Shown here: positions 6,540 to 64,000 of the stretch, piece after piece | How the letters are laid out: each line of letters begins with the position of its first letter | How positions within the stretch are numbered: the stretch's first letter is position 1 | NCBI GenBank assembly: GCA_017517305.1 | Contig: JAFWZV010000020.1 | Span: 62,001 to 126,000, forward strand | Direction: 5' to 3' | Origin: Lachnospiraceae bacterium | GTDB taxonomy: Bacteria; Bacillota; Clostridia; Lachnospirales; Lachnospiraceae | DNA: 64,000 nt | Translations under genes and position numbers: made by a program | Notes under the pieces: generated by a model | The model's input: only the letters and a program-made list of their open reading frames with translations | What the model was told of the DNA's origin: nothing | The model's database searches: none

Positions 6540-6588
6540 TTTATTATAACGATACCAATCCATAATGAGTTTGAAGGATGTGTAAGAA

Positions 6589-7818
6589 ATGAAAATTTGG
6601 CAAGGGTTTATAGAAGGGTTAAAGAAAATAAAAAGAAATTTAGCTGCTGTAGTAAAGAATGCTAGGGCTAGTTTATACTTAAAAAAGAATAAATTTAAGG
6701 TGCCGACAAACGAAATAATTAAGGTCGGATTTTACATTGACTTTCCTCAAGGATGGGACAAACTTTCACCAATATATAAATGTATGAAGGAAAATGAGTT
6801 TTTTTTCCCGCAAGTAATAGTTGATAAAAAAACTGGACATGAACAAATAAAAGCGTTAGAACATGTGGATTTTAGTGAGACTGGAGAGGTGATTTTTAAT
6901 GATGGTCTTCTCAACATAAAAGAATTGGAGTATGATTATTTTTTTTATCAGAGACCATATAACAGTTTTTATCCATCTGAATTAAACGTTAGTAAGGTTG
7001 TGAAGTATACAAATATTTGTTATCTGCCGTATGGATATGCGGGTTCAGATGTGTTTAATTCAGGAAATACGAATAGCGAATTTTTTAGATATGTTTACCT
7101 GGGTTTTATTGAAATTGGAGAGGAACGTAGAATATTAAATGAAAAATTCAAGGTAAATTGTCAAAAAGGATATCAGTATTTTGAAAACCATGGATATCCA
7201 GCGTTTGAGAAATATTTGGATTATAAATCGTCGGGAATTTATTCACATATTTTATGGACTCCACGTTGGGCATTGGGGGAAATTGGTGGGAGCCATTTTC
7301 TTGAATACAAGGATGAGTTTTTAAAGCTTAACGAGGTATTTCCCAATGCACAGATTACTTTTAGACCACATCCATTAATGTTTGGGAATTTTATAAGTAA
7401 AGGTCTTATGACAAAAAATGAGGTAGAAGAATATAAGAACAAAATGTTATCTAATGGGATAATGCAAAGCAGTAATGATTCTGTTGAGGACGATTTTGAT
7501 TCTACAGACATTCTTTTGACGGATTATTCTTCTATTATGATACAATATTTCCTTACGGGGAAACCAATAGTATATTGTCCGGCAGAATATGAATTGAATG
7601 AAGAATATAAACGTATATTAGATGGTGTTTATGTTGCTAATTCTTGGCAGGATGCGGTTGATATTATGAAAAAATTATTGGATGGCAAAGATATATTGAA
7701 GGAAAAGCGAGAAGCGATAATAAAACAATATTTTACGGATGTTAAGGGATCATCAAAAAGAATTGTTACTAGAATTTATGATGATTATATGGAAAGAAAA
7801 AATTTATTTAGGAGGTAA
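6589..7818 (+). CDS. CDP-glycerol glycerophosphotransferase-like (TagB/TagF family)
   Basis: 409 residues. The C-terminal GT-B half carries the family signature: TFRPHPLMF at about residue 257, then DSTDILLTDYSSIMIQYFLTGKPIVYCP at about 303-330, matching the RPHP and TDYSS motifs of TagB/TagF enzymes. It would transfer glycerol phosphate, or a related polyol phosphate, from a CDP-activated donor onto the glycan. The next gene is a TagD-like cytidylyltransferase 5 bases away, which supplies the activated donor. The start ATG 6589 has AAGGATG upstream. It is probably a peripheral membrane enzyme; no TM segment is obvious. Confidence 0.85.
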   Translation: MKIWQGFIEGLKKIKRNLAAVVKNARASLYLKKNKFKVPTNEIIKVGFYIDFPQGWDKLSPIYKCMKENEFFFPQVIVDKKTGHEQIKALEHVDFSETGEVIFNDGLLNIKELEYDYFFYQRPYNSFYPSELNVSKVVKYTNICYLPYGYAGSDVFNSGNTNSEFFRYVYLGFIEIGEERRILNEKFKVNCQKGYQYFENHGYPAFEKYLDYKSSGIYSHILWTPRWALGEIGGSHFLEYKDEFLKLNEVFPNAQITFRPHPLMFGNFISKGLMTKNEVEEYKNKMLSNGIMQSSNDSVEDDFDSTDILLTDYSSIMIQYFLTGKPIVYCPAEYELNEEYKRILDGVYVANSWQDAVDIMKKLLDGKDILKEKREAIIKQYFTDVKGSSKRIVTRIYDDYMERKNLFRR

Positions 7819-44836: not shown

Positions 44837-46405
44837 ATGAAAATATTTTATAAAAAGGATTATATAACATGGACCAAATTGAATAAATGTGTAAACAAAG
44901 ATATAGCGCAGACTTATGAGATTATTTTCCCAGATGGAGATTTAAGTGCTCAGGAGTCAGATTGCGAGAATGCAATACGTTTGTGGGATGAGAAGAAGCA
45001 TGGTGATAAGGTAAAATATTATATAATGTGTGGACAGGGTAGGAGTGAACTATTTTTAGACTCGCTGGCAGAGGATTATTTGTATAAGATAGATGAGGCT
45101 GTTGGAGATGAGAAGGATGTTGTTTTAGCCATTGACGGTTGTAAAGTGCAATTTACTCAAGAGATGGTGGAGTATTTTCTTGGTCTTAAAGAGAAACGAG
45201 GCTTTAGATTACATATAATGGCTCATCTATTTGTGAGTGATATTGTTAAATCACATAACACATATAATATAGATAGGTTATTGCTTCCATATCTTGACAA
45301 TATTGAGCAATTTGACTCAGTTGCATTTTTTAATCCGGCAAAGCTAAAAGATGCCAGCTGCCGTAGTACAATGGATGCTAAGGCTCGTATGGAGGACGAT
45401 TTAATAATCGAGGAAATATTTGCGCAGGAGCTGGACGGCATATTAACTATGGCTAAGGAATTAGACCAGGTGGACGAGGAGCATCTGTGGTTATATGACT
45501 GGGATAAGAGAGCATATCAGCAGATAGAGCTTTTACCACAGGATTTAAGTGATAGACCTAGGTCAAGGAAAACATTTCAAGAGATTGCACCTAATGATGG
45601 CAAGGAGACCTGTAAGCGACTAAGAGAGCTAAGGGATGAATTTAGGAGAAAATATGGTCTAAAACTTAGAGAGAAGCCATGTAACTATTCTGGTGAATGT
45701 AAGGGTAGCTGTTCCTTCTGTGAGGATTATGCTACTACCTTATGGCGAGAAGCTTATGAACATCAACAGTATGATAAAACAATCGAAAGGTATTACGCTG
45801 ATCCAGTACCTATATGTGGCATTAGTAGATTGAGATGGGATTCTGATGGTCCAGGTATTCGAACCCTAGTGCTTATGGATGGCTGTCATATGAGCTGTAA
45901 GCATTGTATTAACAAGGATATAATCAACGATGGTCTTGCGGGCTATATGTTCACAGATGAGCTATATGAGATGATTGAGAAGGATAATCTATACTTTGAG
46001 ATGACTGGCGGAGGTGTTACATTTGGAGGTGGAGAACCGCTTATTCATTCAGAGTTTATAGGCGCATTTAAGGCTAATAATCCTAAGCTTAATGTGGCAG
46101 TGGAGACATGCCTTAATTCTTCCTTTGAGAGTGTTTCAGAATTGGTATTTTTGGTGGATTATTGGATTATAGATGTTAAGGATATGAATGATGATATATA
46201 TCGAAGCTATACAGGTTTGACCAATTTTTCTATGAAAAGAAATCTTAAGTACCTGCTTAGTCATGTGCCTGCTGAGAAGATATTATGCAGGGTGCCATTA
46301 ATTCCTGGATTCAATATGCTAGAGGATGTAGAAAAATCTGTACAAGAACTTAATGAGATGGGAGTAACTAATATAGAGCGTTTTGAGTACAAGGTAGGTG
46401 AATAG
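44837..46405 (+). CDS. radical SAM protein, glycyl-radical-activase-like, with large N-terminal extension
   Basis: 522 residues. The C-terminal ~200 follow the pyruvate formate-lyase activase pattern: DSDGPGIRTLVLMDGC, the [4Fe-4S]/SAM motif CHMSCKHC (Cys350, 354, 357), and EMTGGGVTFGGGEPLI. Just before it Cys282, 288, 292 and 295 (CxxxxxCxxxCxxC) may hold another cluster. The first ~270 residues match no domain I know. No glycyl radical enzyme is present in the window, so this is not an ordinary activase pair. Start ATG 44837 with AGGAG. The next gene begins 2 bases after the stop and is probably its partner. Confidence 0.88.
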   Translation: MKIFYKKDYITWTKLNKCVNKDIAQTYEIIFPDGDLSAQESDCENAIRLWDEKKHGDKVKYYIMCGQGRSELFLDSLAEDYLYKIDEAVGDEKDVVLAIDGCKVQFTQEMVEYFLGLKEKRGFRLHIMAHLFVSDIVKSHNTYNIDRLLLPYLDNIEQFDSVAFFNPAKLKDASCRSTMDAKARMEDDLIIEEIFAQELDGILTMAKELDQVDEEHLWLYDWDKRAYQQIELLPQDLSDRPRSRKTFQEIAPNDGKETCKRLRELRDEFRRKYGLKLREKPCNYSGECKGSCSFCEDYATTLWREAYEHQQYDKTIERYYADPVPICGISRLRWDSDGPGIRTLVLMDGCHMSCKHCINKDIINDGLAGYMFTDELYEMIEKDNLYFEMTGGGVTFGGGEPLIHSEFIGAFKANNPKLNVAVETCLNSSFESVSELVFLVDYWIIDVKDMNDDIYRSYTGLTNFSMKRNLKYLLSHVPAEKILCRVPLIPGFNMLEDVEKSVQELNEMGVTNIERFEYKVGE

Positions 46406-52112: not shown

Positions 52113-52706
52113 ATGAAACTCACACCAACCCTAAACTACTACAACGAAAATGCTAAAGAATTCACAGCTAGCACAATATATGTGGACTTTACAAGCGTTC
52201 AGGACAAGTTCTTGAATAAACTCGCTTCAAGCTCATCCATATTGGATTTCGGTTGTGGAGCAGGGCGTGATACAAAGTATTTCCTGGAGAAAGGTTACAT
52301 AGTTGAGGCAATAGATGGTTCGGAAGAACTATGTAAGCTTGCCAGTGAGTATACTGGAATAGAAGTGAAGCATATGCTTTTTCAGGAGCTTTATGATGTT
52401 GAAAAATACGATGGGATCTGGGCTTGTTCTTCCATATTACATCTTCCGTACGAAGAATTGGTGGAAGTAATGAAGAAGATGAAAGTGGCACTTAAGGACA
52501 CAGGAATCATCTACACATCCTTCAAATACGGAAGCTTTGAAGGTGTTAGAAATGGTAGATATTTTATAGATATGACAGAAAAATGTTTAGAGAAATTACT
52601 TCAGGATGTGGGTGGACTTGATGTAGAAGAGATGTGGGTAACATCCGATGTAAGACCGGGTCGAGGTGAAGAAAAATGGTTGAATCTCTTTCTCCGAAAG
52701 AAATAG
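52113..52706 (+). CDS. class I SAM-dependent methyltransferase
   Basis: 197 residues. Motif I is SILDFGCGAGRDTKYFLEKG, followed by VEAIDGSEELCKLASEY (acidic residue at end of strand 2) and IWACSSILHLP. It is the small TehB/UbiE-like type that methylates small molecules, proteins or RNA caps; there is no target-recognition domain, so not a restriction methylase. ATG 52113 follows AAGGAGG. Its end overlaps the helicase start by about 31 bases in another frame, so the two are likely translated together. Confidence 0.88.
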   Translation: MKLTPTLNYYNENAKEFTASTIYVDFTSVQDKFLNKLASSSSILDFGCGAGRDTKYFLEKGYIVEAIDGSEELCKLASEYTGIEVKHMLFQELYDVEKYDGIWACSSILHLPYEELVEVMKKMKVALKDTGIIYTSFKYGSFEGVRNGRYFIDMTEKCLEKLLQDVGGLDVEEMWVTSDVRPGRGEEKWLNLFLRKK

Positions 52707-55156
52707 TTGAATATCCAAATGGTGGAAAGAGTTATTTCTATGTTGTTGATCAGACAGCAATTATTGTGGATGAGGGGATTTGCAAATGTAGTTCGGAAGA
52801 AGATGCATTTCCCTACACTTTGATTACTGAAAAGCAGAACTCTTATATGCATCGATATGGTAAGGTGTATAGATTTCTACGTGAAGACGAGGATGCTATT
52901 GAGAGCTTTTTGGAGAATGCTGATGACAATACAGACATTAATTTTTCTATACGCACTGTGAATCGTGAAGAAGACTCAAATGCATCACCATTGGAGTTTT
53001 TGTTCGAAGAGAAATTTACAAATGTATATGGCATGGAAGGCCTAAAATATTTAAGGAAGGAATATGGCGTTGTTGATAAGGACGGTCATAATTTCTTTCT
53101 TGATTATTATGCCCAAAAGGATGATGGTGGAGTTGCGGTAGAAGAAAATGGTGTGTCATATCACCATCCACAGATAATAGGAATTGATAGATATAGAAAC
53201 CAGTTGCTAAAGCAAAACACCTGTACCAAGTGGGGCATTAAGCTGTATAGATTTTCTACAGAGGATTGTCAGTTTGACAATCGTATAGAGGACGATATTC
53301 GTACATTCTTTGGAGATGATATAAGCAAATATGAAGAAAATGGATTGATTATAGATAGACCTGTGGAATTGTATGATCACCAGTTGGTTACTCTTCAGGC
53401 CATTGAGCAGAAGAGATTGGCGGGGGTAAAAACATTTCTGATTGTATTTCCAACGGCAAGTGGAAAGTCAAAGATTGTAGAAGAGGACATACAGGCATTT
53501 GCAGCGGGAAGAGAGAAGTTTAAGGCCTTGGTGTTGGCACCAAATATAAATATTGTAGAAGACTGGAGACATAGGATAGAAAATTCCTTGAAGAAATATA
53601 AGGACTGTATACAGGTAAAAACATTTGCGAACATAGTAAGAAACTATACGAACATTTCGCCAAATGAGTATGATTACATAGTAATAGACGAGGCCCATCA
53701 TGCAGTGGCACCTATGCTGAAGAGAGTGATACAGTATTTTACGCCAGAGTTTATGATAGGACTTACTGCCACGGACCAAAGACCGGACAAGAAAAAGCTT
53801 GAAAGTGTATTCGGTAGCTACAAGACTGGACTATCCTTGGTTCAGGCCATGGAAGAGGGAATAGTGGCACAGGCAAATGTGTACCGTGTAGAGACCAATA
53901 TCAATCTAAGTCAGGTGCGATTTAACGGTAAGGATTATGTGAATGCAGACCTGGAGAAAAGCATTCGTGTTACTTCCAGAAATGAGTTGATTGTAAATGT
54001 ACTTAAGGAATATTTTTGTGAAGGTGAAGTAGCTAATCGACAGGGTATTATATTCTGTGTAAATACTAAGCATACCATAGAGATGGAAAAGCTTTTAAAT
54101 GAAGCTGGCATTAGTGCAAAATCCTATACAAGCAAGACAAAGAATGCTGATAAAGTGATGGCGGATTTTAAGGAGAAGAAGATTCGTTTTCTATGTGCTT
54201 GCAGCATGATTTCAGAAGGTTGGGATTACCCAGAGCTTGGGATTCTTGTTATGGCAAGACCAACCCTTTCTAAGGTGCTTTACTTGCAACAGATAGGTAG
54301 AGGCTTGCGTAAGACCGACACCAAGAAAAATGTATTCATAATCGATGTGGTTGATGAGTATGGAGCTATGGCGAGACCATGTTCTATGCACAGTATATTT
54401 CAAAATGCTATGTATGTTCCATTTGGAAATATTACAAACAGGTCCTACTCTGTGGGAGATATGATTGAGATTGACGGAATTAAAGAACGAGTAGAACGTA
54501 TAGTAGAAATTGATATCAATAGCTTCGAAGATAAATATGGTGATTACCTAAGTCAGGAGCAGCTGGCTAGGGAATATTATGTCAGCACAGGCACCATAAC
54601 AAGTTGGATAAAGAAGGGCAAGATTAAGCCTACAGTTTCCTATCCGTTTGGTAATAAGCAGATATATCTATTTAGCCCAGAGGATGTAAATAACATAAGA
54701 AATGAATTAAACATCCCAGAGCATACCGAAGAAACCATAAAGAAAGACTTCTTTGATTTCTTGGCTGAGAGAGATTATTCACTATCCTATAAAATGCCAT
54801 TTTTGCTATCCTTTATTAAGAATATGAATTCCATAGGGGATGCAAATATTGAGGCTGTGATGGATGATTATATTGCATTCTATGAGGATAGAATTGCGCG
54901 AGGTCTGCCGGTAGATAGACCATCCTGTCCATATAATGCAGAGACATTGAAGGATAGGAAAATGATAAAAACAAATATGTTGACTAATCCTTTTGAAAAG
55001 TTTGAGAGAAAGAGATTCTTGTATCATTCCAAAGATTTGGGTGTTATCTCTATGAATCATGCACTGTTTTCACGTATGGGAGAGGAAGATTTTCAGAAGG
55101 TGAAGGAACAGATGCTGGAGGATGTGAAGAATTACTATAGGGATATGGGTGTGTAG
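52676..55156 (+). CDS. Vsr/DUF559-like nuclease - SF2 helicase - HTH fusion
   Basis: 826 residues. Residues ~135-200 (FLDYYAQKDDGGVAVEENGVSYHH...GIKLYRF) fit a DUF559/Vsr-like PD-(D/E)XK fold. Residues ~250-560 are a superfamily 2 helicase: Walker A FPTASGKSK, DEAHH, GLTATDQRPDKKKLE, and motif VI QQIGRGLRK. Residues ~620-675 are a MerR-like HTH: LAREYYVSTGTITSWIKKGKIKP. The order nuclease-helicase-DNA binding suggests a DNA-targeting defence protein. It overlaps the methyltransferase gene and would act with it (inference). Start ATG 52676 with GAGGTGAAGAAAA. Confidence 0.88.
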   Translation: MVESLSPKEIVEYPNGGKSYFYVVDQTAIIVDEGICKCSSEEDAFPYTLITEKQNSYMHRYGKVYRFLREDEDAIESFLENADDNTDINFSIRTVNREEDSNASPLEFLFEEKFTNVYGMEGLKYLRKEYGVVDKDGHNFFLDYYAQKDDGGVAVEENGVSYHHPQIIGIDRYRNQLLKQNTCTKWGIKLYRFSTEDCQFDNRIEDDIRTFFGDDISKYEENGLIIDRPVELYDHQLVTLQAIEQKRLAGVKTFLIVFPTASGKSKIVEEDIQAFAAGREKFKALVLAPNINIVEDWRHRIENSLKKYKDCIQVKTFANIVRNYTNISPNEYDYIVIDEAHHAVAPMLKRVIQYFTPEFMIGLTATDQRPDKKKLESVFGSYKTGLSLVQAMEEGIVAQANVYRVETNINLSQVRFNGKDYVNADLEKSIRVTSRNELIVNVLKEYFCEGEVANRQGIIFCVNTKHTIEMEKLLNEAGISAKSYTSKTKNADKVMADFKEKKIRFLCACSMISEGWDYPELGILVMARPTLSKVLYLQQIGRGLRKTDTKKNVFIIDVVDEYGAMARPCSMHSIFQNAMYVPFGNITNRSYSVGDMIEIDGIKERVERIVEIDINSFEDKYGDYLSQEQLAREYYVSTGTITSWIKKGKIKPTVSYPFGNKQIYLFSPEDVNNIRNELNIPEHTEETIKKDFFDFLAERDYSLSYKMPFLLSFIKNMNSIGDANIEAVMDDYIAFYEDRIARGLPVDRPSCPYNAETLKDRKMIKTNMLTNPFEKFERKRFLYHSKDLGVISMNHALFSRMGEEDFQKVKEQMLEDVKNYYRDMGV

Positions 55157-55319
55157 GGAAATTAACGGCAATTGTAAGTGTTATATTTATAATTTTAAAA
55201 GTTCAAAAAAGAGATAAATAAGCCCATAAATGTATAATATTCGAACGATAGTTTTCTTGTGGGATAATACTAATTATGATATTCTAATCTTCGATTGGAA
55301 AAGGAGGTGCTAATTATAT

Positions 55320-57707
55320 ATGATGAAAATAGTAGATTCAGGATATAAAATAGATTTGCATATACACTCTATTAGTTCAAGTTTGAAAGATAAAGCAAAA
55401 GTTTCTTTTAACACATTGCAAAATATTAATGTATTAGCAGATAGATTAAATGAGAATGGCGTTCAAATATGTGCAATAACAGATCATGACACCTTCGATT
55501 ATGATATGTATAAAGAATTAAAAAAATATGAAAAAGATGCAACCAGCTCAATGGAAAAAGTTTTTCCAGGGGTGGAATTTTCTGTAGAATTTGATGGAGA
55601 TAATGGAAAAAATGTTTTACATGTCATAGCCATTTTTAATGATGAAGATGAAACAAAAGTAAAATCAATACAAACTTTTTTGATAAATGAAAAAGGAACT
55701 GTTGCTTATGATAGAGGTATGTCGTTTTCGGAAGAAAAGTTTTTATCTATATTAAGAAATATTGATATTGATACGGTATTAATTGCACATCAAAAAAGCT
55801 CTTTAACATCTTCAAGAGCATATCAACATGATGCTAAAACTGTAGGGGATATTAAATTTAATGAATTTGTATATACAGATTACTTTGAGGCGTTTGAGTT
55901 TAGAAATAAGAAAAATGAAGTTTTTAACAAAAGCTTTTTGAATTTTACAAATCAAACAGAAGCTATTCGATTTATTACTGGCTCTGATTGTCATGATTGG
56001 AGATATTATCCTAAAACAAAGGAAAGTGATAATGATGAATTCATATATACTTATGTTAAATGTTTGCCTACTTTTCGTGGATTGGTAATGGCTATTACGG
56101 ATCATAGACGAATAAAAACTGTTAATAGCTTTTTTAGTTCAAGTGAAACGTACATAAAACAAATAGATATGAAAATCGATGGACAACCATATTCGATTCC
56201 GTTATCTAGAGGATTAAATGTAGTAATTGGTGATAATTCCGTAGGAAAGTCATTGTTACTTCATAGAATGACAGGATATTGTAAGAAGCAAGAAAAACTG
56301 CTAAAAGCGTCAGTAATTGATGGATATACAAAATATTTGAAAGAAAACAAAATAGAGATAGAAACTGAAATTTTAAATACAGATATATTTGCTTTTGATA
56401 TGCAAGGTGAAGTGCGTGAAAAATTTGAGAAGAAAAAGATTAAATCAGTAGATTTTTTACGCACATACTATCCAGATCCAATTAGTGTTGAGTCATATAA
56501 GGAAAAGGTAAAAAGAAAACTTGAGAAAATTTTTACTTATTTGGAAAATAAATTTGAAATAGAAATTGCTGAAGCGAAACTGGGAAAATTTATTATTTAT
56601 GACGAAGAATCGACAGGTGCTGAGAGTTTGACATTTGTAGGGAATAAATCAAAAGATAATAAAAAAGTCTCAGGATACAAAGGAATTGTAGAGGATATTG
56701 ACACCATAATTGAAAAAATTGAAGACTTAATGGATGATAAATGGATTGAAGAAACCGATGTGAAAAGTTTGGAATATATTATTGAACAATTGGATGGAAT
56801 TTCAATGAAGTACAATAAAAAGAGAAAAGAAGTGGAGTTCGAAAATGACAAAATAGCATTATTTCAAGCAGTTATGTTGGATTTTAAACAACAATATCAA
56901 GCATCTGTTTCTGACACTCAAAAGAAATTCTCTCTGTATAATGAAAATATCAACAAAGCGACGGAAAATATAACTGAGTTAATACGGAAAAGAAATGAAA
57001 ATCTTAAACCGGATTTTTATATTGATACACAAAAAATAGATTTTCTAACTAACAGGGTATACAATTATGATTTCAATAGTCGTGTTTCGATTACGGAAAT
57101 TAGCGAAGAATATATAAAAAGATTATTTGAGGCTGTTTTTAACAAAAATGTTAAATGCGTTTTAGATATGACACAATCGGAATTAGCTGAAGCAATATCA
57201 TATTATGGTGGATTAGATTATGAAGCCTTAGAAGTCTTAAAGACCAAAATATATGAACAAATGGAAAAAGATTTTGCTAATAAGTTTACTATAACAGAGG
57301 CAGGAACTGATAGAACGAAAGAATTATCATCAGGATTCAACTCTAAAATTTATTTTGATTTATTATCGTATGAAAGTAATCATGAGGGGATATATATTAT
57401 AGACCAGCCAGAGGATAACATTTCACAAAAATCCATTCGTGAATATTTGTTGGATAGATTCAAGGTAATGGGAGAAAATCGACAGGTGATTATTGTGACG
57501 CATAACCCACAATTTATTGTCAATCTAGATGTAGATAATGTTATTTATATAGGTAAAGATGATGGACGAGTAACTGTTCAATCTGGGGCATTGGAATACA
57601 AAAATGATAGATATAACATTTTAGACATAATATCGAATCATATAGAAGGTGGGCTTGATACTTTGAAAAGGAGATGGAAAAGATATGAAAAGAATAATTC
57701 GATTTAA
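55320..57707 (+). CDS. PHP-domain ATPase (TrlF-like/SMC-type) putative defence protein
   Basis: 795 residues. The N-terminal PHP phosphoesterase domain has YKIDLHIHSIS (HxH), ITDHDTFDY and GSDCHDWRY. The ABC/SMC-type ATPase follows: Walker A VVIGDNSVGKSLLLHRM (~303-310), a long coiled coil (~355-590), signature ELSSGFN, Walker B YIIDQPEDN and the H-loop VTHNPQF. Such PHP-ATPases (TrlF family) occur in defence islands and are thought to be nucleases triggered by nucleic acids. The gene is very A+T-rich compared with 52113-55156, a sign of separate transfer. Start ATG 55320 with AAGGAGG. Confidence 0.9.
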   Translation: MMKIVDSGYKIDLHIHSISSSLKDKAKVSFNTLQNINVLADRLNENGVQICAITDHDTFDYDMYKELKKYEKDATSSMEKVFPGVEFSVEFDGDNGKNVLHVIAIFNDEDETKVKSIQTFLINEKGTVAYDRGMSFSEEKFLSILRNIDIDTVLIAHQKSSLTSSRAYQHDAKTVGDIKFNEFVYTDYFEAFEFRNKKNEVFNKSFLNFTNQTEAIRFITGSDCHDWRYYPKTKESDNDEFIYTYVKCLPTFRGLVMAITDHRRIKTVNSFFSSSETYIKQIDMKIDGQPYSIPLSRGLNVVIGDNSVGKSLLLHRMTGYCKKQEKLLKASVIDGYTKYLKENKIEIETEILNTDIFAFDMQGEVREKFEKKKIKSVDFLRTYYPDPISVESYKEKVKRKLEKIFTYLENKFEIEIAEAKLGKFIIYDEESTGAESLTFVGNKSKDNKKVSGYKGIVEDIDTIIEKIEDLMDDKWIEETDVKSLEYIIEQLDGISMKYNKKRKEVEFENDKIALFQAVMLDFKQQYQASVSDTQKKFSLYNENINKATENITELIRKRNENLKPDFYIDTQKIDFLTNRVYNYDFNSRVSITEISEEYIKRLFEAVFNKNVKCVLDMTQSELAEAISYYGGLDYEALEVLKTKIYEQMEKDFANKFTITEAGTDRTKELSSGFNSKIYFDLLSYESNHEGIYIIDQPEDNISQKSIREYLLDRFKVMGENRQVIIVTHNPQFIVNLDVDNVIYIGKDDGRVTVQSGALEYKNDRYNILDIISNHIEGGLDTLKRRWKRYEKNNSI

Positions 57708-57963
57708 TGAAGTAGATGACACTTATATTTGTAAGGAAAATGATGAAAATATTTTTTGTATCTCAAAATCTGAATTAAAATTTGATGTGAAAAAGTTTTA
57801 TGATGCTTTTTATGGTAATGATAAAGATTTTAGTGAGATAGTTTTAGAGAACTGTATTCAGAGTGATAAATCTGCAAATAGAATTTTTAATTGTATTGAA
57901 AAATTGGTCAATGGAATTAATGAAAAACTATCTGAACTAGAGCAGGAAGATGTAGATGAATAG
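57685..57963 (+). CDS. small partner of the PHP-ATPase
   Basis: 92 residues, overlapping the ATPase gene by ~23 bases in another frame, so coupled. It is acidic with a beta-strand start (RFNEVDDTYICKENDENIFCISKSELKF) and helical end (CIEKLVNGINEKLSELEQEDVDE). It has no recognisable domain. Likely a regulator or immunity-type component of the PHP-ATPase; inferred only from coupling. Confidence 0.8.
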   Translation: MKRIIRFNEVDDTYICKENDENIFCISKSELKFDVKKFYDAFYGNDKDFSEIVLENCIQSDKSANRIFNCIEKLVNGINEKLSELEQEDVDE

Positions 57964-57971
57964 AAGAAATG

Positions 57972-58017
57972 CTTAGTAGTCACTACCCCCTGTTTGACTA
58001 CTAACCTGACTACTAAG
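57972..58017. other. CTTAGTAGTCA inverted and direct repeats
   Basis: CTTAGTAGTCA (57972-57982) is the exact reverse complement of TGACTACTAAG (58007-58017). TGACTACTAA also occurs at 57995-58004 as a direct repeat. It marks the end of the PHP-ATPase operon and may be an operator, a terminator-like fold or an integration scar. Confidence 0.6.
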
Positions 58018-58144
58018 AGGCGGTAATAGCTTGCTGAAATTTGCTATAATCTGCCTCGACGACACACTAACAAAAGATATGAAAAATAGCCAAGAAACCC
58101 CGCAAAACTGGGCATTTCACGGCATTTTAAGGAGATTGAAATCT

Positions 58145-58621
58145 ATGATTAAAATATTATTCATCTGCCACGGCAACATTTGCCGTTCACCTATGGCAGA
58201 ATTCGTCCTAAAGGACATGACCCAAAAACAAAATATCTCCCACCTATTCCACATAGCCTCCTGCGCCACCAGCACTGAGGAAATCTGGAATGGAGTAGGA
58301 AACCCAGTGTACCCACCAGCTAAAAAGGAACTAGCTAAGCATGGAATTTCCTGCGAGGGAAAGCGAGCAGTTCAGCTTCGCAAGGACGACTACAGCAAGT
58401 ATGACTATTTAATCTGTATGGACTCTGCAAATGTTCGCAACTCCCTTCGAATCCTTGGAGGTGACCCTGATAACAAAATCAAGATGTGCCTAGAGTTTGC
58501 AGGTATTAATCGTGATGTGGCGGATCCTTGGTACACAGGTCGCTTTGAGACAACCTATAATGATGTGGTTATGGGTTGTGAGGGGTTACTGGATTATCTT
58601 CGTAAGCAAGGGAAGATATAA
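58145..58621 (+). CDS. low-molecular-weight protein-tyrosine phosphatase
   Basis: 158 residues, the usual size. The phosphate-binding loop is FICHGNICRSPMAEF (C-x5-R), and the general acid Asp is in VADPWYTGRFETTYND. It removes phosphate from tyrosine, often on capsule-synthesis or stress kinases, or from arginine in some Firmicutes. Start ATG 58145 with AAGGAG; a longer frame from 58031 includes unrelated sequence. Its codon use is richer in G+C than the PHP-ATPase before it, marking a return to chromosomal backbone. Confidence 0.94.
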   Translation: MIKILFICHGNICRSPMAEFVLKDMTQKQNISHLFHIASCATSTEEIWNGVGNPVYPPAKKELAKHGISCEGKRAVQLRKDDYSKYDYLICMDSANVRNSLRILGGDPDNKIKMCLEFAGINRDVADPWYTGRFETTYNDVVMGCEGLLDYLRKQGKI

Positions 58622-58648
58622 GGTTGGTTAATTAACCAGAGGAGGACT

Positions 58649-59365
58649 ATGATGATGGATAATCTGGAAGATAGAGTATATACAACCTGTGATGTGTCCT
58701 TTCAGCATGATTTGGATTATGTGATGAATAAATCCCTACGAGGCTATTCCTTTAGAGAAAGCAAGGATAGCTCTTTGGTTCAGGTGGACTCTAAGAAGAA
58801 TCAACTTCAAAGTTATGAGAGGACCAAGCAAAACAACAAATTTGTGGTGGGTGCTGCAACGCTTGTGGTGATGTTTGGGTCTGCAGGTATATTAGAGCTG
58901 TTTCATCTGACTGATAATACAGTGGGCGTTGTGGTTGTGATAGCTTTAACAATTATAACAGCGGTGGTGTCACATTTGATGGTGAGTGGCCCTAGTGATG
59001 TGTTTGTAATGAAGATTGATAACACTAATTGTAGACTGTACCAGCTTAGAGTTTTGGCCGATGATAAGTGGTGTATAGTCTGTGGTGCCAATTTTGATCA
59101 CCATAATAATTTGATAAACCATGATTTTATAGCTGAGGTTGAGGCAACCTATTCTGATTTAATTATAATGGATCAGATGGAATCAGTTGAGGAAACTGAT
59201 GAAGGTATTATTATTCATGCCAATACAATTCTTAGAAAGTATGAGCCAGACAAGCCATTTAACAAGTATACAGAGTTAGAAGGTATGCTTCGGATGGATA
59301 TAGTTATACAGCGTGGAGTATATCCAGAGAACATGCTTGACGAAATTGCAGAAGAGATAAAATAG
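58649..59365 (+). CDS. two-TM hypothetical protein, tandem copy 1
   Basis: 238 residues. A basic cytosolic N-terminus (~70 residues) is followed by two membrane helices (FVVGAATLVVMFGSAGILELF and VGVVVVIALTIITAVVSHLMV) and a cytosolic domain with KIDNTNCRLYQLRVLADDKWCIVCGANFD and ATYSDLIIMDQMES. Homologous to the next gene over most of its length. Start ATG 58649 or 58652 after GAGGAGGACT. No known family; it may sense or signal at the membrane. Confidence 0.82.
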   Translation: MMMDNLEDRVYTTCDVSFQHDLDYVMNKSLRGYSFRESKDSSLVQVDSKKNQLQSYERTKQNNKFVVGAATLVVMFGSAGILELFHLTDNTVGVVVVIALTIITAVVSHLMVSGPSDVFVMKIDNTNCRLYQLRVLADDKWCIVCGANFDHHNNLINHDFIAEVEATYSDLIIMDQMESVEETDEGIIIHANTILRKYEPDKPFNKYTELEGMLRMDIVIQRGVYPENMLDEIAEEIK

Positions 59366-59389
59366 TACATATAGATATGGAGAAATACT

Positions 59390-60124
59390 ATGTCAAATAA
59401 CCTAATTAGCAAACCATATACTCAAGCTCCAACTACCTTTCAGCAGGACTTGGATGCATTGCTTAACACCTCCACACAGGCCTACACATTGGTTGAAAGT
59501 CCAGAGCATCCAGTTCAGGCTATTAATAGAAAGAGGCGTTGGAGTGAATTGCAGGAAAAATATGATAACACCCGATACTTATGGGCTTCTACAATTGGTG
59601 GAGTTGGAATAGCATCAGCCTGTGTGTTGTTGTTTATGTTTTTGTCCAATGTGATGTATGGAAAGGACATTGATTCACTTGTTGCCATTACATGTCTCAT
59701 TTTTGCATTAGCTTCTCTGGCAACTGTGACAGTGCTGAATCTTTTAAAATGTAACCAATTTGATATATTCATAACTAATCAAAATGATGAGTTTTATCAG
59801 TTTAGATTTTTGCCTGATGACAAGCTTTATATCATAGGTGGTGCTAATTTTGACGAGAATGGTGATACCTTGGCTATGAACTATATTACAGAGATGGAGC
59901 CTATATATTCTGACTTAATTATTATGGATAAAATCAAAAGTATAAGTCAAGACAGTGATGGAGCTGTAATTAAGGGTATTGCCAACTTCAGATCCTATAG
60001 GATTAATAACGGCGCCAGAGTATACATTGAATTGGAGAAGAAACAGCATATGACTATATTCATTCAAGATGGAATCTATCCTGAGGATATGCTGGAAACT
60101 ATTAAAGGTAAATATAATATTTAA
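59390..60124 (+). CDS. two-TM hypothetical protein, tandem copy 2
   Basis: 244 residues, a paralogue of the preceding gene. Shared landmarks are TTFQQDLDALLNTSTQAYTLVES, two helices (~65-115), DEFYQFRFLPDDKLYIIGGANFDENGD and PIYSDLIIMDKIKSI, and the ending QDGIYPEDMLETI. Divergence is high in the N-terminus. It is followed by a terminator, so the pair is one operon, separate from the LytTR gene. Start ATG 59390 with weak GGAGAAA. Confidence 0.82.
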   Translation: MSNNLISKPYTQAPTTFQQDLDALLNTSTQAYTLVESPEHPVQAINRKRRWSELQEKYDNTRYLWASTIGGVGIASACVLLFMFLSNVMYGKDIDSLVAITCLIFALASLATVTVLNLLKCNQFDIFITNQNDEFYQFRFLPDDKLYIIGGANFDENGDTLAMNYITEMEPIYSDLIIMDKIKSISQDSDGAVIKGIANFRSYRINNGARVYIELEKKQHMTIFIQDGIYPEDMLETIKGKYNI

Positions 60125-60132
60125 GCACTCTC

Positions 60133-60168
60133 AAAGCTTCGACGAAAATTATCGTCGGAGCTTTTTAT
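60133..60168 (+). terminator. rho-independent terminator
   Basis: AAAGCTTCGACGA pairs with TCGTCGGAGCTTT (one mismatch), followed by T-rich TTTATTTTG. Confidence 0.85.
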
Positions 60169-60268
60169 TTTGCTCTCTTATTTCTACATATTTTTCAATT
60201 AATTTCCCTTATACTCCCTATACGTCCATATTTTTCGGTGGAGGATATATTCGTGGGAGGTATATATA

Positions 60269-60793
60269 GTGTTTGTCATAGGGATTCCCCGCGGCAGTTC
60301 CGAAGCTACCGCGGAGCTAGAGGACAAGCTTTCAGGCATATGCGAAAGCTTCGGCTTCAAGCACCGAATTTGCACTTATGATGATACTGAAGAACTAAGG
60401 ACATTTCTTGAAAATGTATATATAGAGGAGGGGGATTCATCATCACAGGAAAATGAACATAACCAATACATAGAACTTTTTTATCAGAGATTCAAGTACC
60501 GAATAAGGCGTAAGGATATTAAATATATAGAGGCGTATAACGGCTACACTGAATTCCTTGTGGGGAACAAACGATTCAGAAGAGAAGAGTCGCTTAAGGA
60601 GATAGAACAGATGCTGGATATGTCTTTATTCGTTAAAATCCAGAGAGCCTATATAGTTAATTTGGCACACGTAAAAAGCTACGAGAATATGGAGGTTTTG
60701 GTAGGTGAAGAAAGACTTGCAGTGTCTCGCAGAAGGAGACGGGCCTTCGAGGAAATCTACACCAAATACCACATTTCTACAGAGGGGAAATGA
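60269..60793 (+). CDS. LytTR DNA-binding regulator without receiver domain
   Basis: 174 residues. The C-terminal LytTR domain spans RIRRKDIKYIEAYNGYTEFLVGNKRFRREESLKEIEQML and FVKIQRAYIVNLAHVKSYENMEVLVGEERLAVSRRRRRAFEEIY. The N-terminal ~75 residues are too short and lack the phospho-Asp motif of a response regulator, so it may be activated by other means. Start GTG 60269 behind GGGAGG. LytTR-like direct repeats lie 10-60 bases downstream at the RiPP promoter, so it probably controls the cluster. Confidence 0.9.
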   Translation: MFVIGIPRGSSEATAELEDKLSGICESFGFKHRICTYDDTEELRTFLENVYIEEGDSSSQENEHNQYIELFYQRFKYRIRRKDIKYIEAYNGYTEFLVGNKRFRREESLKEIEQMLDMSLFVKIQRAYIVNLAHVKSYENMEVLVGEERLAVSRRRRRAFEEIYTKYHISTEGK

Positions 60794-60802
60794 ACAAAAC
60801 TG

Positions 60803-60855
60803 ACCATTTAAGGACTTATGGAACCACTAAAGGAGTTATCATTGAACAGCTAAAA
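60803..60855 (+). promoter_or_regulatory. three LytTR-like direct repeats
   Basis: ACCATTTAAG (60803), ACCACTAAAG (60823) and ACAGCTAAAA (60846) are spaced 20 and 23 bp and resemble the LytTR/AgrA consensus ACAGTTAAG. The last overlaps the -35 region. Confidence 0.55.
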
Positions 60856-60870
60856 TCACCTTGCTACAAT
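60842..60870 (+). promoter_or_regulatory. promoter for the RiPP cluster
   Basis: TTGAAC (60842-60847), 17-base spacer, TACAAT (60865-60870). Confidence 0.65.
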
Positions 60871-60886
60871 CCTATATAGAAGATGA

Positions 60887-60915
60887 AGTTAATTACACAA
60901 AACAAGTAATTAACT
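60887..60915 (+). promoter_or_regulatory. 5'UTR hairpin of the RiPP transcript
   Basis: AGTTAATTAC pairs perfectly with GTAATTAACT across a 9-base loop. No T-run follows, so not a terminator; it may stabilise the mRNA. The 85 bases after it hold only a 13-codon frame from 60930, probably not meaningful. Confidence 0.6.
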
Positions 60916-61000
60916 AGGGGAAATCTTTTATGGGGATTCTATTATCGGCTTTAAGGAGGTCGGTATTATAGGATAAATAAAGTGGAAAGGAGAAATGGCT

Positions 61001-61156
61001 ATGGGTTGTTCAAATGACGCAGCAGTAGTTGCAAGCTGTGGTATCGCTTGTTTAGCAGGATGTGGCGCAAGTGCTCTTTTAACTTTAGGAATGGGTACAG
61101 CAGTTCTTGCAGTAGCAGGTACTTCAGGCGGAGCTTTAGGTTCAGTAACAAGCTAG
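61001..61156 (+). CDS. RiPP precursor peptide, sactipeptide-like (CxxxCxxxC)
   Basis: 51 residues from ATG 61001 (AGGAG 8 bases upstream; ATG 60995 is too close). Cysteines are at 3, 13, 17 and 21: ASCGIACLAGCGAS is the CxxxCxxxC layout of thuricin CD peptides (compare CGTVC and CVIGCIGSC there). The remainder, to residue 51, is Gly/Ala/Val/Leu/Ser/Thr-rich and could accept thioether bonds at alpha carbons. The leader before the first core Cys is unusually short (~12 residues) and lacks a clear cleavage motif. The radical SAM maturase follows. A CXXX-repeat peptide class is an alternative. Confidence 0.82.
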   Translation: MGCSNDAAVVASCGIACLAGCGASALLTLGMGTAVLAVAGTSGGALGSVTS

Positions 61157-61252
61157 TAATAGCTACATAGTAACCTGAGATGGGCGGACAGGCTTCCTTG
61201 ATACATTGGATCTGTTCGCCTAATTTCAAATATGAATATACGGGGGTGAAGA

Positions 61253-62767
61253 ATGAGTAACAAGAGCCTTTATTATGACAGGTTTAAAACACTGTCGGGG
61301 AATACATATTTATATGATGGAGTTACCTCAGTGGTAGTTCCGGACAATGGTATATTAGAACAAATTATTAGATTAAAGCATCAGGGAAGTAGTGACCAGG
61401 AGGTTATGAGTCAGTTGTCTGACACAGATATCTCCCCTAAGGAGCTTGAAAGCGCATTGATGTTTTACAATAGATGGGAGAGAAATTTTCAAGGCTTTTC
61501 TCTAGCTAGAAAGGAGCATCACATTCCGAAGGTTACAGCCCAGGATATAAAGGACACTTTAGATCAGGGAGACATTTACATATTGATTCTAAATGTAACT
61601 GAGGATTGTAATTTTCGTTGCAAATATTGCTACCTGTCTGAAGCCTATGACTACACCAGGAACAGGACGACTAAGCGAATGAGCTTCGAGACAGCTAAGG
61701 CTGCTATAGATTATTATTACAAGCTTTTAGATGACTATAAATTTAAGAAGCCTAATAAAAGGGTGAATATCAATTTCTTCGGTGGAGAGCCACTTTTGGA
61801 GTTTGAGCTCCTTAAGAAGTGTGTGGAATACGCAAAGGCTAATACCACCAGGGAAGTGGCATTTAACATTACTACCAATGGTTATCTTTTGACGGACAAA
61901 ATCAGTGACTTTTTGGTGGAGAATAATTTTTACATATCAGTAAGTCTTGATGGAGCTAGAAAGAATAACACACAGAGGGTTATGGCAAATGATATTCCTA
62001 CCTTTGACCGAATAGTGGACAATCTTAAGAGTTTTAAGAAGCGTTATCCGGATTACACAAATATTGGAATATTGTCTGTCTATGATATTAATACGGACCT
62101 AGATGAGAATGTGGATTTCTTTGGTGACCCTGAGCTTCCACCTGTGCTAAGAGCAACAGGTGTGTCAAATAATAATACAGATTATTATGACCAATTTCAG
62201 GATTCGGATTATGAAAAATTTAGAGAGACTATGTATAGACTTCGTAAGGAGTATCTTGATAAGAAGATGAAAAGTCAGCCTATGTCGGGATACCTTCAGG
62301 TGTTCTTTGAATCGGAGCTTTTCACTGTTCTTATGAGAAAACGCCACAGAGATGATAATACGGGATCCATAATTCCATATACCGGAACCTGTGTGCCAGG
62401 CATAAGACTAAGCGTTAGAGCAGATGGTACATTGGATATCTGTGAGAGGATGAATCAGGAGTTCCCTATCGGAAATGTGCATACGGGTTATAACTACGAA
62501 GCCCTAGCGAATATCGTTAACAAGTACAATGAGAGCATTACCGCAAGCTGTCGTGAGTGTATCGGCAACAAGATATGTCAGATATGCTTTGCTCAGGTTG
62601 CCGGGGACAAGTGCTTTAATTATAAGCCGGAGATATGTAAGCAGATTCAGGAGATGATTAAGAATGGTAATTCCATAATATACAGCATTCTTGAGGAGAA
62701 TCCGGAAGCCTACACTCTCGAGGGTATGGAAAAGGTAATCGAGAATATGATTAAGTTTGAGGGATAA
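61253..62767 (+). CDS. radical SAM/SPASM peptide maturase
   Basis: 504 residues. An N-terminal ~90-residue part resembles a peptide-recognition (RRE-like) region. The radical SAM core has DCNFRCKYCYLSEAY (Cys119, 123, 126), FFGGEPLLEF and ITTNGYLL. The C-terminal SPASM domain supplies auxiliary cluster cysteines: CVPGIRLSVRADGTLDIC, then CRECIGNKICQICFAQVAGDKC. It would abstract hydrogen from the precursor and form Cys-to-alpha-carbon thioethers. Start ATG 61253 with GGGGGTGAAG. No protease or transporter is yet visible. Confidence 0.93.
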   Translation: MSNKSLYYDRFKTLSGNTYLYDGVTSVVVPDNGILEQIIRLKHQGSSDQEVMSQLSDTDISPKELESALMFYNRWERNFQGFSLARKEHHIPKVTAQDIKDTLDQGDIYILILNVTEDCNFRCKYCYLSEAYDYTRNRTTKRMSFETAKAAIDYYYKLLDDYKFKKPNKRVNINFFGGEPLLEFELLKKCVEYAKANTTREVAFNITTNGYLLTDKISDFLVENNFYISVSLDGARKNNTQRVMANDIPTFDRIVDNLKSFKKRYPDYTNIGILSVYDINTDLDENVDFFGDPELPPVLRATGVSNNNTDYYDQFQDSDYEKFRETMYRLRKEYLDKKMKSQPMSGYLQVFFESELFTVLMRKRHRDDNTGSIIPYTGTCVPGIRLSVRADGTLDICERMNQEFPIGNVHTGYNYEALANIVNKYNESITASCRECIGNKICQICFAQVAGDKCFNYKPEICKQIQEMIKNGNSIIYSILEENPEAYTLEGMEKVIENMIKFEG

Positions 62768-62780
62768 AGGAGGAGATAAA

Positions 62781-64000
62781 GTGAGCTGGTTAAGATTTTA
62801 TCCGGATGTAATTTTGAAGAAGGGATATGTTAATTCCACCCTTTATTTTCTCGGTGAGAAGAAGACCATTGTTCTTACCGGAAGAGAAAGTGAATTGCTG
62901 AATTATCTACTGGACCACTCTGTGGAAGATGCCAAGGAGGCTTTTGGGGATGAACTTGTGGATGTTGCCGTGGACAAAGTACTTTCTAGTGGTATGGGAA
63001 ATCTATATTCAGCAAAGGTTTTCGCAGAGAAATACAAGCCCAATATAGACTTTTTCGTGGAACAGTTTTTCCAGGATAGCTTCGGAATATATGAGTTTTG
63101 TGTCCAGCTTCCCGTGGAAGAGCATTCAGAGTACAGAGCCCCCAAGGACGTGTTAATTCACGAGGGTTGTAACTCCTATTTTGTTCAAGATATCGATGTT
63201 ATGTCAGCCCAAAATTACAGGGAATTGCTAAGTAATAATTTGAAGCTGATACGAGGAGTGGCTGTCAATCATTTCACTATACAGGGCGGCAATCCTATGC
63301 GTAACTGGCCTCTCGTAATAGAACTTTTAGATGAGGTGTCAGAAGGCTTCAGATGTATGACTGAACTTGTATTCCCTAATGTTCCTATAGACAGACACTA
63401 CATAGAACAGCTTAAGTCATACAACGTGATGATTAAGCTAAGTGTCATGGCAGGGGATATTGTATTAGGTGACCAAACCTTTATAGATAATGTGAATATG
63501 TTATTTCAGGAGGATATGGATGTTAAGGTCAACGTTATCTATGATACAAAGACAAACATTTATCCAAATGGGGTTAATGAGATATTGAATCAGATGGGAA
63601 TTGATAATACGGACTGTACCCATCTGATTGCAAACCCAAAGGACAAGCTACTTGCCCTTAGCACAGGCATAGATAGAGTGGAGAATATAGGTCCTGAAAT
63701 CTATTACAGAAAGCGAAGCTGTATGTTTGGCAGGATTGCGGTTACGGCAGATGGCTATATTAGACCATGTAGTTTCAGCTCTCACGTAATAGGATATCTA
63801 AGTCATGGTATCATGACGGTGTTTGAAAAGGACTTCCACAGCAAGTACTGGAGGCATTCCAAGGAGGATGTGTCTAGATGCAGTGGCTGCGAGAATCGTT
63901 TCGCCTGCATGGACTGTGCCAACATAGAGGAACTTATCGAAGGACAATGTGACTACCTGAAGGTGTTATGTGATTACAATCCGGAGGAAGGTCAATGGGC
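62781..64000 (+). CDS. maturase-like radical SAM pseudo-enzyme, 3'-truncated by window
   Basis: At least 406 residues, running off the right edge. Start GTG 62781 after AGGAGG. The barrel layout resembles radical SAM proteins (VAVNHFTIQGGNPMRNWPLVIELLDEV in place of the GGEP strand), but I see no CxxxCxxC in the expected region. The C-terminal part has SPASM-like CMFGRIAVTADGYIRPC and CSGCENRFACMDC. So it may bind auxiliary clusters and the precursor without making a SAM radical, acting as a partner to the first maturase. It begins 13 bases after the first maturase ends. Confidence 0.85.
   Translation, partial: MSWLRFYPDVILKKGYVNSTLYFLGEKKTIVLTGRESELLNYLLDHSVEDAKEAFGDELVDVAVDKVLSSGMGNLYSAKVFAEKYKPNIDFFVEQFFQDSFGIYEFCVQLPVEEHSEYRAPKDVLIHEGCNSYFVQDIDVMSAQNYRELLSNNLKLIRGVAVNHFTIQGGNPMRNWPLVIELLDEVSEGFRCMTELVFPNVPIDRHYIEQLKSYNVMIKLSVMAGDIVLGDQTFIDNVNMLFQEDMDVKVNVIYDTKTNIYPNGVNEILNQMGIDNTDCTHLIANPKDKLLALSTGIDRVENIGPEIYYRKRSCMFGRIAVTADGYIRPCSFSSHVIGYLSHGIMTVFEKDFHSKYWRHSKEDVSRCSGCENRFACMDCANIEELIEGQCDYLKVLCDYNPEEGQW

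Follow-up and report, generated by a model that had tools for sequence, protein, structure and literature searches.

Sactipeptide enzymes generally read an N-terminal leader on their precursor, which is later removed (PMC8172795). In the thuricin CD system, TrnC and TrnD are reported to form a complex, and mutants of these enzymes with the RRE (recognition element for ribosomally synthesised and post-translationally modified peptides, RiPPs) deleted give no thioether crosslinking, while mutation of the TrnD CxxxCxxC motif lowers thuricin CD crosslinking activity only slightly (PMC12093266). A 2011 mining survey for thuricin CD found structural genes mostly with double-glycine (GG) motifs, and the parts of that survey available to us hold no peptide with its first cysteine at positions 2 to 5 (PMC3132745). 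We found no leaderless sactipeptide, ranthipeptide or RiPP described in the openly licensed PMC literature, and the words 'leaderless' and 'radical SAM' are absent from the main text of the Hungate1000 bacteriocin survey as available to us (PMC13289728). Here we describe a peptide gene and its neighbours in a 64,000-nucleotide stretch of Lachnospiraceae bacterium DNA (assembly GCA_017517305.1, contig JAFWZV010000020.1, positions 62,001 to 126,000), referred to below as the window. The locus is best described as a new leaderless form of the thuricin CD/huazacin-type radical S-adenosylmethionine (SAM) peptides. It is probably a cassette whose modified product is exported whole and likely serves as a narrow-spectrum bacteriocin.

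The open reading frame (ORF) at 61001-61156 on the forward strand encodes the 51-residue peptide MGCSNDAAVVASCGIACLAGCGASALLTLGMGTAVLAVAGTSGGALGSVTS, in which Gly, Ala, Ser and Thr make up 61% of residues. It carries exactly the cysteines that the original prediction had read from it, Cys3 and a CxxxCxxxC motif at Cys13, 17 and 21, and its composition is also as that prediction described. The ORF is more than a chance reading frame. A filter for ATG-initiated ORFs of 40-70 residues with at least four Cys within residues 1-25 and at least 45% Gly/Ala/Ser/Thr found it as the sole match in the window, via its two starts, and gave no match in 100 first-order Markov resamples of the window. Over 143 loci (1.506 Mb) the same filter recovered the six cassettes described below with their duplicate loci, an internal start in L014/L011, and the unrelated L097 and L129. 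In its 53-residue form the peptide has no Pfam or NCBIfam match at E up to 10.

The position of the start site leaves no room for a longer leader. An AGGAG ribosome-binding site lies 8 nucleotides before the ATG at 61001. Initiation at the other in-frame ATG, at 60995, would lengthen the peptide by just Met-Ala to the 53-residue form, but that codon lies only 2 nucleotides from AGGAG and the 51-residue form is therefore preferred. An in-frame TAA nine codons upstream makes a longer leader from a standard start impossible. A further genome from this genus carries an orthologue (L140) that is 94% identical in its precursor, with nonsynonymous and synonymous divergences of 0.027 and 0.193, and that shares the stretch AAAGGAGAAATG-[G/A]-CTATGG near the AGGAG. 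As the two loci differ by gaps of 11 and 1 nucleotides upstream of the ATG while the precursor itself is under constraint, no hidden leader is conserved there. Third codon positions are identical in 43 of 51 precursor codons (window 61001-61153 against L140:6356-6508), and in 21-38 of 51 across 51-codon stretches of the adjoining maturase gene, always below the precursor. This points strongly to codon- or RNA-level constraint on the precursor gene between these two genomes. The features of the cassette, which runs in a single direction, are as follows.

60269..60793, +, LytTR-domain regulator, 174 residues, GTG start (Pfam PF04397, E 1.8e-15)
60988..60992, +, ribosome-binding site AGGAG, read from the sequence, 8 nucleotides 5' of the ATG at 61001
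61001..61156, +, leaderless precursor peptide, 51 residues, Cys3/13/17/21, ATG start, TAG stop
61181..61222, +, RNA hairpin between precursor and maturase genes (folding and comparison with L140)
61253..62767, +, radical SAM/SPASM maturase, 504 residues (Pfam PF04055)
62781..64000, +, degenerate radical-SAM/SPASM partner, 418 residues, coding part ending 34 bases past the window (G000:C20:124781-126034)
8031-8762 of L002 (the window's own genome), ATP-binding cassette (ABC) ATPase, downstream of the partner
8772-9491 of L002, ABC permease, after the ATPase
9484-9936 of L002, 150-residue protein, after the permease

Searches with the precursor sequence recovered only its own match and four weak ones in 200 family genomes, and nothing in genome contigs, so the maturase and partner were taken as queries. 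The best of the weak matches, L004, lies within a 797-residue open frame. With the maturase, 26 of 397 family genomes matched at E up to 1e-25 (three, the source genome included, below 1e-100), and, counting the source genome each time, 3 of 392 order genomes at E up to 1e-70, 7 of 398 phylum genomes and 2 of 37 genus genomes; these sets overlap. A scan of genome contigs gave at least 594 stretches, of which 545 were confirmed as related and the best 80 kept; precursor inspection covered under half of these 80 loci and of the 42 listed family matches. Plasmid and phage searches with the maturase, the partner or the L059 precursor returned distant maturases only, plus one relative of the Ruminococcus albus cassette discussed below, and among 52 radical-SAM loci in viral contigs the best by E-value was 29% identical.

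Five related leaderless cassettes were recovered: L140 from the same genus, L012 and L013 from the same family, L057 from Eubacterium ruminantium FB3002 and L059 from Coriobacteriales bacterium OH1046. All six precursors are 50-55 residues long, and each has a Shine-Dalgarno-like site. The first cysteine stands at position 3 in the window, L140 and L012, at 5 in L059 and L057, and at 2 in L013, whose peptide starts Met-Cys. In-frame stops lie upstream by 9 codons in the window, 6 in L140, 5 in L059, 20 in L057, 3 in L012 and 2 in L013, and the only alternative ATG, GTG or TTG between stop and start in the six cassettes is the ATG two codons up in the window and L140. A leader of about 12 residues, which the original prediction had proposed and thought unusual, is thus better read as none at all. 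Shortness by itself would not be unusual, as the leaders of thurincin H and gnavucin D have 9 residues (PMC13239113). The unusual point emerges only from the family comparison, in which the first cysteine falls at 2-5 in six of six cassettes, and for the same reason we favour an active whole peptide over unusual processing, the two options offered earlier.

The six peptides also share an internal pattern. Taking one 4-residue register per peptide, 23 of 29 cysteines fall in it (13, 17 and 21 in the window and L140; 10, 14, 18 and 22 in L059; 5, 9, 17 and 21 in L057; 9, 13, 21 and 25 in L012; 2, 6, 10, 18 and 22 in L013), and a tail of 28-31 residues follows the last cysteine of the N-terminal half. 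The residue after Met is Gly, Ala or Cys in all six, which is not significant by itself; such residues allow Met removal by methionine aminopeptidase, and the mature product is proposed to be residues 2-51. The precursor gene precedes the maturase gene in the window, L140, L059 and L013 and follows the permease gene in L012 and L057. Pfam names no peptidase in the window cassette, nor among the other non-maturase proteins scanned (ABC, permease, regulator and accessory proteins) in the six cassettes.

The adjoining maturase is a radical SAM/SPASM protein with the CxxxCxxC motif (CNFRCKYC at 119-126), a predicted RRE at about residues 7-80 and a two-auxiliary-cluster SPASM motif with seven cysteines (380, 397, 433, 436, 442, 445 and 462). 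Its SPASM spacing, Cx11Gx4Cx35Cx2Cx5Cx2Cx16C, is nearly that of TrnC, Cx11Gx4Cx36Cx2Cx5Cx2Cx14C (PMC12093266), with spacers of 35 and 16 in place of 36 and 14. The best NCBIfam matches are a mix of the CcpM, RumMC and PapB families, all below cut-off, headed by TIGR04068 (CcpM) at 234.2 bits against a cut-off of 500. An AlphaFold2 model (mean predicted local distance difference test score, pLDDT, 86.2) places three strands and three helices at residues 8-79, the canonical RRE layout (PMC12093266), and the maturase is thus predicted to retain an RRE domain of the leader-binding type. The closest solved fold to the model is CteB (5why/5wgg), classed as a ranthipeptide enzyme (PMC12093266). Decay of the RRE was looked for in the leaderless clade and no sign of loss was seen, since leaderless and leadered maturases alike conserve this domain less well than the core (29 against 47% within the leaderless and 20 against 36% within the leadered maturases).

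The partner carries the TrnD-type CxxCx5C motif at Cys367, 370 and 376. Its model is weaker (pLDDT 76.1), with an RRE-like N-terminal fold in which helices come after the strands, and its fold matches include SuiB, CteB, TigE and SkfB at TM-scores of 0.5 or below. The CxxxCxxC motif at the radical-SAM site is absent from the partners of the window, L140 and L059 and kept in those of L057, L012 and L013. By sequence, the window partner is a degenerate radical-SAM protein whose radical-SAM cysteines have been lost in the window lineage and the Coriobacteriales. Of the two maturases that the original prediction assigned to the peptide, both genes are therefore present, but the second encodes this degenerate protein. 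A partner outside the leaderless clade (L047:7149-8360) also has no CxxxCxxC match, so loss of the motif may have occurred more than once. As mutation of the equivalent TrnD motif only slightly lowers activity, the partner of the window lineage looks like a natural TrnD cluster mutant.

A candidate precursor with its first cysteine at 16-46 stands beside 17 of the 18 other maturases of the final tree; beside that of L047 no candidate was found. The ORF filter used to look for these candidates missed the L152 precursor and the L150 pair, both found otherwise. It also gave other Cys-containing ORFs (one each in L002 and L059, five in L150 and two in L155), an other-frame ORF overlapping the precursor in L057 and L013, and one further ORF in L013. 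In each of three trees a single branch divides the six leaderless systems from all other rows, with support of 98/95 (23 rows), 94/93 (24 rows) and 92/88 (24 rows, RRE region removed). Rows L050a, L051b, L053a, L053b and L055 of the 23-row tree were left out of the 24-row trees, which added L150-L155. The TrnC and TrnD sequences stand outside the trees, and the thuricin CD look-alike L155 was included instead. L056/L141, a single contig with an interrupted maturase frame and no precursor found, was excluded from all trees. A single loss of the leader would be the simplest, though unproven, account of the branching.

Several further loci deserve description in their own right. Plasmid pRUMAL03 of R. 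albus 7 carries huazacin-family precursors (NF037972), encoded by two identical genes (L143:7193-7399 and 7438-7644) in a cluster with a CPBP protease gene; a signal peptidase II gene lies near the leadered system of KNHs205. Precursors that look huazacin-like by eye occur in L150-L154, and unusually long leaders with the first cysteine at 40-46 in L151:6535-6813, L153:5451-5732, L154:3200-3478 and L152 near 6784, all from one other family of the phylum. L155:6275-6412 and 6440-6574 are neighbouring genes for GG-leader peptides that contain CxxxCxxxC; with the maturase and intact partner next to them, they look like a two-peptide system of the thuricin CD type. In L048 a CLI_3235-type peptide (TIGR04065) has 20 residues ahead of its first cysteine. 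L056:7001-8452, from a Defluviitaleaceae metagenome-assembled genome, holds the interrupted related maturase with a partner that has CxxxCxxC and apparent ABC genes. At L152:10013-12177, ORFs of repeated FGSLMDIDKLT and VSLSISIREPK on two strands are probably a CRISPR array translated by chance.

Our results suggest a molecular model for how a peptide of this kind could be modified. The 51-residue peptide would be translated without a leader, so the enzyme pair must read the core itself. The TrnC-like maturase and TrnD-like partner may pair via their N-terminal RRE domains and grip the peptide through its hydrophobic, Cys-spaced N-terminal half. The 4-residue cysteine register would form one helix face, followed by the Ala/Gly/Ser/Thr-rich half. 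The maturase, with the sole radical-SAM cluster of the pair, would join Cys to this C-terminal half to give a hairpin longer than that of thuricin CD, while the partner, its radical-SAM cysteines lost in the window lineage, may act as a scaffold. The peptide, its start Met probably removed, would then be exported whole by the ABC transporter, which fits the finding that no peptidase was recognised. By analogy with related systems, antibacterial action is the likeliest role, and the peptide is most likely a bacteriocin of narrow spectrum that is controlled through LytTR. It is very probably radical-SAM-modified and sactipeptide-like. This is supported by its place directly upstream of a maturase with near-TrnC SPASM spacing and by relatives of that maturase that adjoin huazacin-family and two-peptide GG-leader precursors. 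The earlier assignment to a thuricin CD-like sactipeptide precursor thus holds for the resemblance and for the near-TrnC maturase next door; the leader that sactipeptide enzymes read and remove is missing, with the first cysteine at 2-5 and in-frame stops upstream, and as the thioethers are themselves a prediction we do not claim sactipeptide membership. Whether the six cassettes amount to a leaderless radical-SAM RiPP class is evenly balanced. In such a class, an RRE maturase and a dead RRE partner would capture the core, with the RREs as pairing interface and no proteolysis, from a single origin among leadered thuricin CD/huazacin-type ancestors and with passage between Bacillota and Actinomycetota.

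A number of observations weigh against the proposed leaderless model. For the leadered group, candidate precursors were picked by position, cysteines and ribosome-binding site, and support for the leaderless clade drops from 98/95 to 92/88 with changed rows and columns. L014:7160-7393 (reverse strand, 77 residues) was counted as leadered, yet translation from its internal ATG, which has an AGGAG, would yield a leaderless peptide with its first cysteine at 5. Counted as leaderless, it makes the tree need two changes, and a second origin of leaderlessness or a dual start is possible there. Apart from L140, the precursors are only 29-33% identical to that of the window and are of low complexity, so their homology rests on the neighbouring genes. 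Pfam matched nothing in several of the cassette proteins, and a peptidase might be encoded elsewhere. An RRE kept without a leader would need another use, in pairing or in binding the N-terminus. TrnD binds the leader in an AlphaFold 3 model of thuricin CD, a contact that the window system cannot use in the same way, and the TrnD RRE is described as lacking a winged helix, whereas the window partner model has helices after the strands (PMC12093266).

The alternative closest to the original prediction is a short-leader sactipeptide, in which residues 1 to about 12 form a real leader removed by a protease encoded elsewhere, with only Cys13, 17 and 21 bridged. Precedent exists in 47-residue Bacillus thuringiensis precursors whose CxxxCxxxC starts at Cys12 (PMC3132745), and Cys3 of the window does not fit the 4-residue spacing seen among the later cysteines. 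However, Cys2, 6, 10, 18 and 22 of L013 and Cys5, 9, 17 and 21 of L057 are all in register, so that a cut near residue 12 would discard cysteines likely to be bridged, and this account is improbable. Removal at the other end, with part of the Ala/Gly/Ser/Thr-rich tail acting as a recognition element that is later cut off, is very improbable. The 28-31 residues after the last cysteine of the N-terminal half do exceed the tail of thuricin CD. Follower peptides are also known among RiPPs (PMC8172795), but the acceptor residues of sactipeptides are typically found in the C-terminal portion of the core (PMC12093266), which makes the tail probably core, and Pfam names no peptidase in the scanned cassette proteins.

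A leaderless radical-SAM peptide with other chemistry, such as ranthipeptide-type beta/gamma thioethers, epimerisation or too few links, is unlikely, though it draws on the CteB-like fold of the maturase (a ranthipeptide enzyme in PMC12093266) and on the mixed, sub-cut-off CcpM, RumMC and PapB matches. Relatives of the maturase adjoin huazacin-family (NF037972) precursors and the L155 two-peptide GG-leader CxxxCxxxC pair, and a Cys-rich N-terminal half with a Ser/Thr-containing C-terminal half suits a sactipeptide hairpin. It is improbable that the modified peptide is a signal feeding the LytTR regulator rather than a bacteriocin. LytTR genes do adjoin the window, L140, L013 and L057 cassettes, and LytTR+GHKL pairs adjoin those of R. 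albus and L057. The window regulator, however, has no receiver domain found by Pfam, and the scan of window proteins at 52676-60793 named no kinase domain. LytTR regulation is also common in bacteriocin clusters, and a signal of fifty hydrophobic residues would be a long one. We retain the uncleaved, thioether-bridged bacteriocin as the favoured account.

The hairpin after the precursor has a minimum free energy of -20.7 kcal/mol (z -2.8 for 61165-61225, only -1.6 for the longer 61154-61255), and L140 retains its stem with one pair altered on both sides, as judged by eye. A hairpin follows the precursor in all four cassettes folded (window, L140:6509-6615, L013:10130-10250 and L059:6795-6900), with z-scores of -1.6 to -5.0 that vary with cassette and stretch. 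Its probable effect is to limit readthrough or to stabilise the precursor RNA. Rfam gave no match reaching gathering score in window 54000-64000, and a direct-repeat operator upstream was not found with one guessed pattern, whose spacer was probably miscounted. The LytTR gene of L140 sits at the position equivalent to that of the window, and regulators with both receiver and LytTR domains adjoin the L013 and L057 cassettes. The 150-residue protein after the permease has no detectable relation to its L059 counterpart. Upstream, window 58649-59365 and 59390-60124 encode adjacent proteins of 238 and 244 residues that, judged by eye, have segments in common; neither matches a family above cut-off, and one gene like this pair sits at the equivalent place in L140. 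A 522-residue ORF at 44837-46405 with CHMSCKHC and GGGEP is probably another radical SAM protein, with a long N-terminal part fused (by eye).

Systems that have dropped the leader and kept the RRE would separate two jobs of this domain, leader binding and the joining of enzymes, and would mirror in nature the TrnD cluster mutant already published. A precursor made in one piece, with no trimming step, would also be convenient for producing or engineering antibacterial peptides that carry thioether bridges. Genes of this kind could be overlooked by precursor finders built around a leader.

Among described systems, thuricin CD (TrnA/TrnB, TrnC, TrnD) shares with the window cassette two enzymes, the TrnC-like seven-Cys SPASM, the TrnD-like CxxCx5C partner, the CxxxCxxxC motif, a Gly/Ala/Ser/Thr-rich C-terminal half and an ABC transporter, and its GG-leader look-alike L155 falls among the leadered relatives. 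It differs in having two GG-leader peptides, whereas the window encodes a single leaderless 51-residue peptide with four cysteines, a partner without CxxxCxxC and no recognised peptidase. The 47-residue precursors that carry the motif from Cys12 come from two B. thuringiensis strains, and their cleavage site puzzled the authors (PMC3132745). Huazacin/thuricin Z (NF037972), as found on R. albus 7 pRUMAL03, shares the order LytTR regulator, precursor(s), maturase, partner, ABC ATPase and permease, but its precursors have 18 residues ahead of the first cysteine and the partner motif is intact; the R. albus precursor scores 50.1 against a cut-off of 35, and the window precursor is unmatched at E up to 10. 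Thurincin H and gnavucin D resemble the window peptide in their very short N-terminal extension; they have 9-residue leaders, with a 29-residue core in gnavucin D (PMC13239113), whereas the first cysteine of the window family stands at 2-5 in peptides of 50-55 residues. CLI_3235/CcpM (TIGR04065/TIGR04068) provides the best NCBIfam match of the maturase, but at 234 bits against 500, and its maturase group lies on a separate branch. Microcin C is also made without a leader, and its enzyme recognises the formylated N-terminus of the heptapeptide substrate (PMC6495379). It differs in being a heptapeptide with an added nucleotide. The leaderless class II bacteriocins share with the window peptide production without a leader, and none of them is known to be modified by radical-SAM enzymes. 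The maturase beside the window peptide argues that this peptide is modified.
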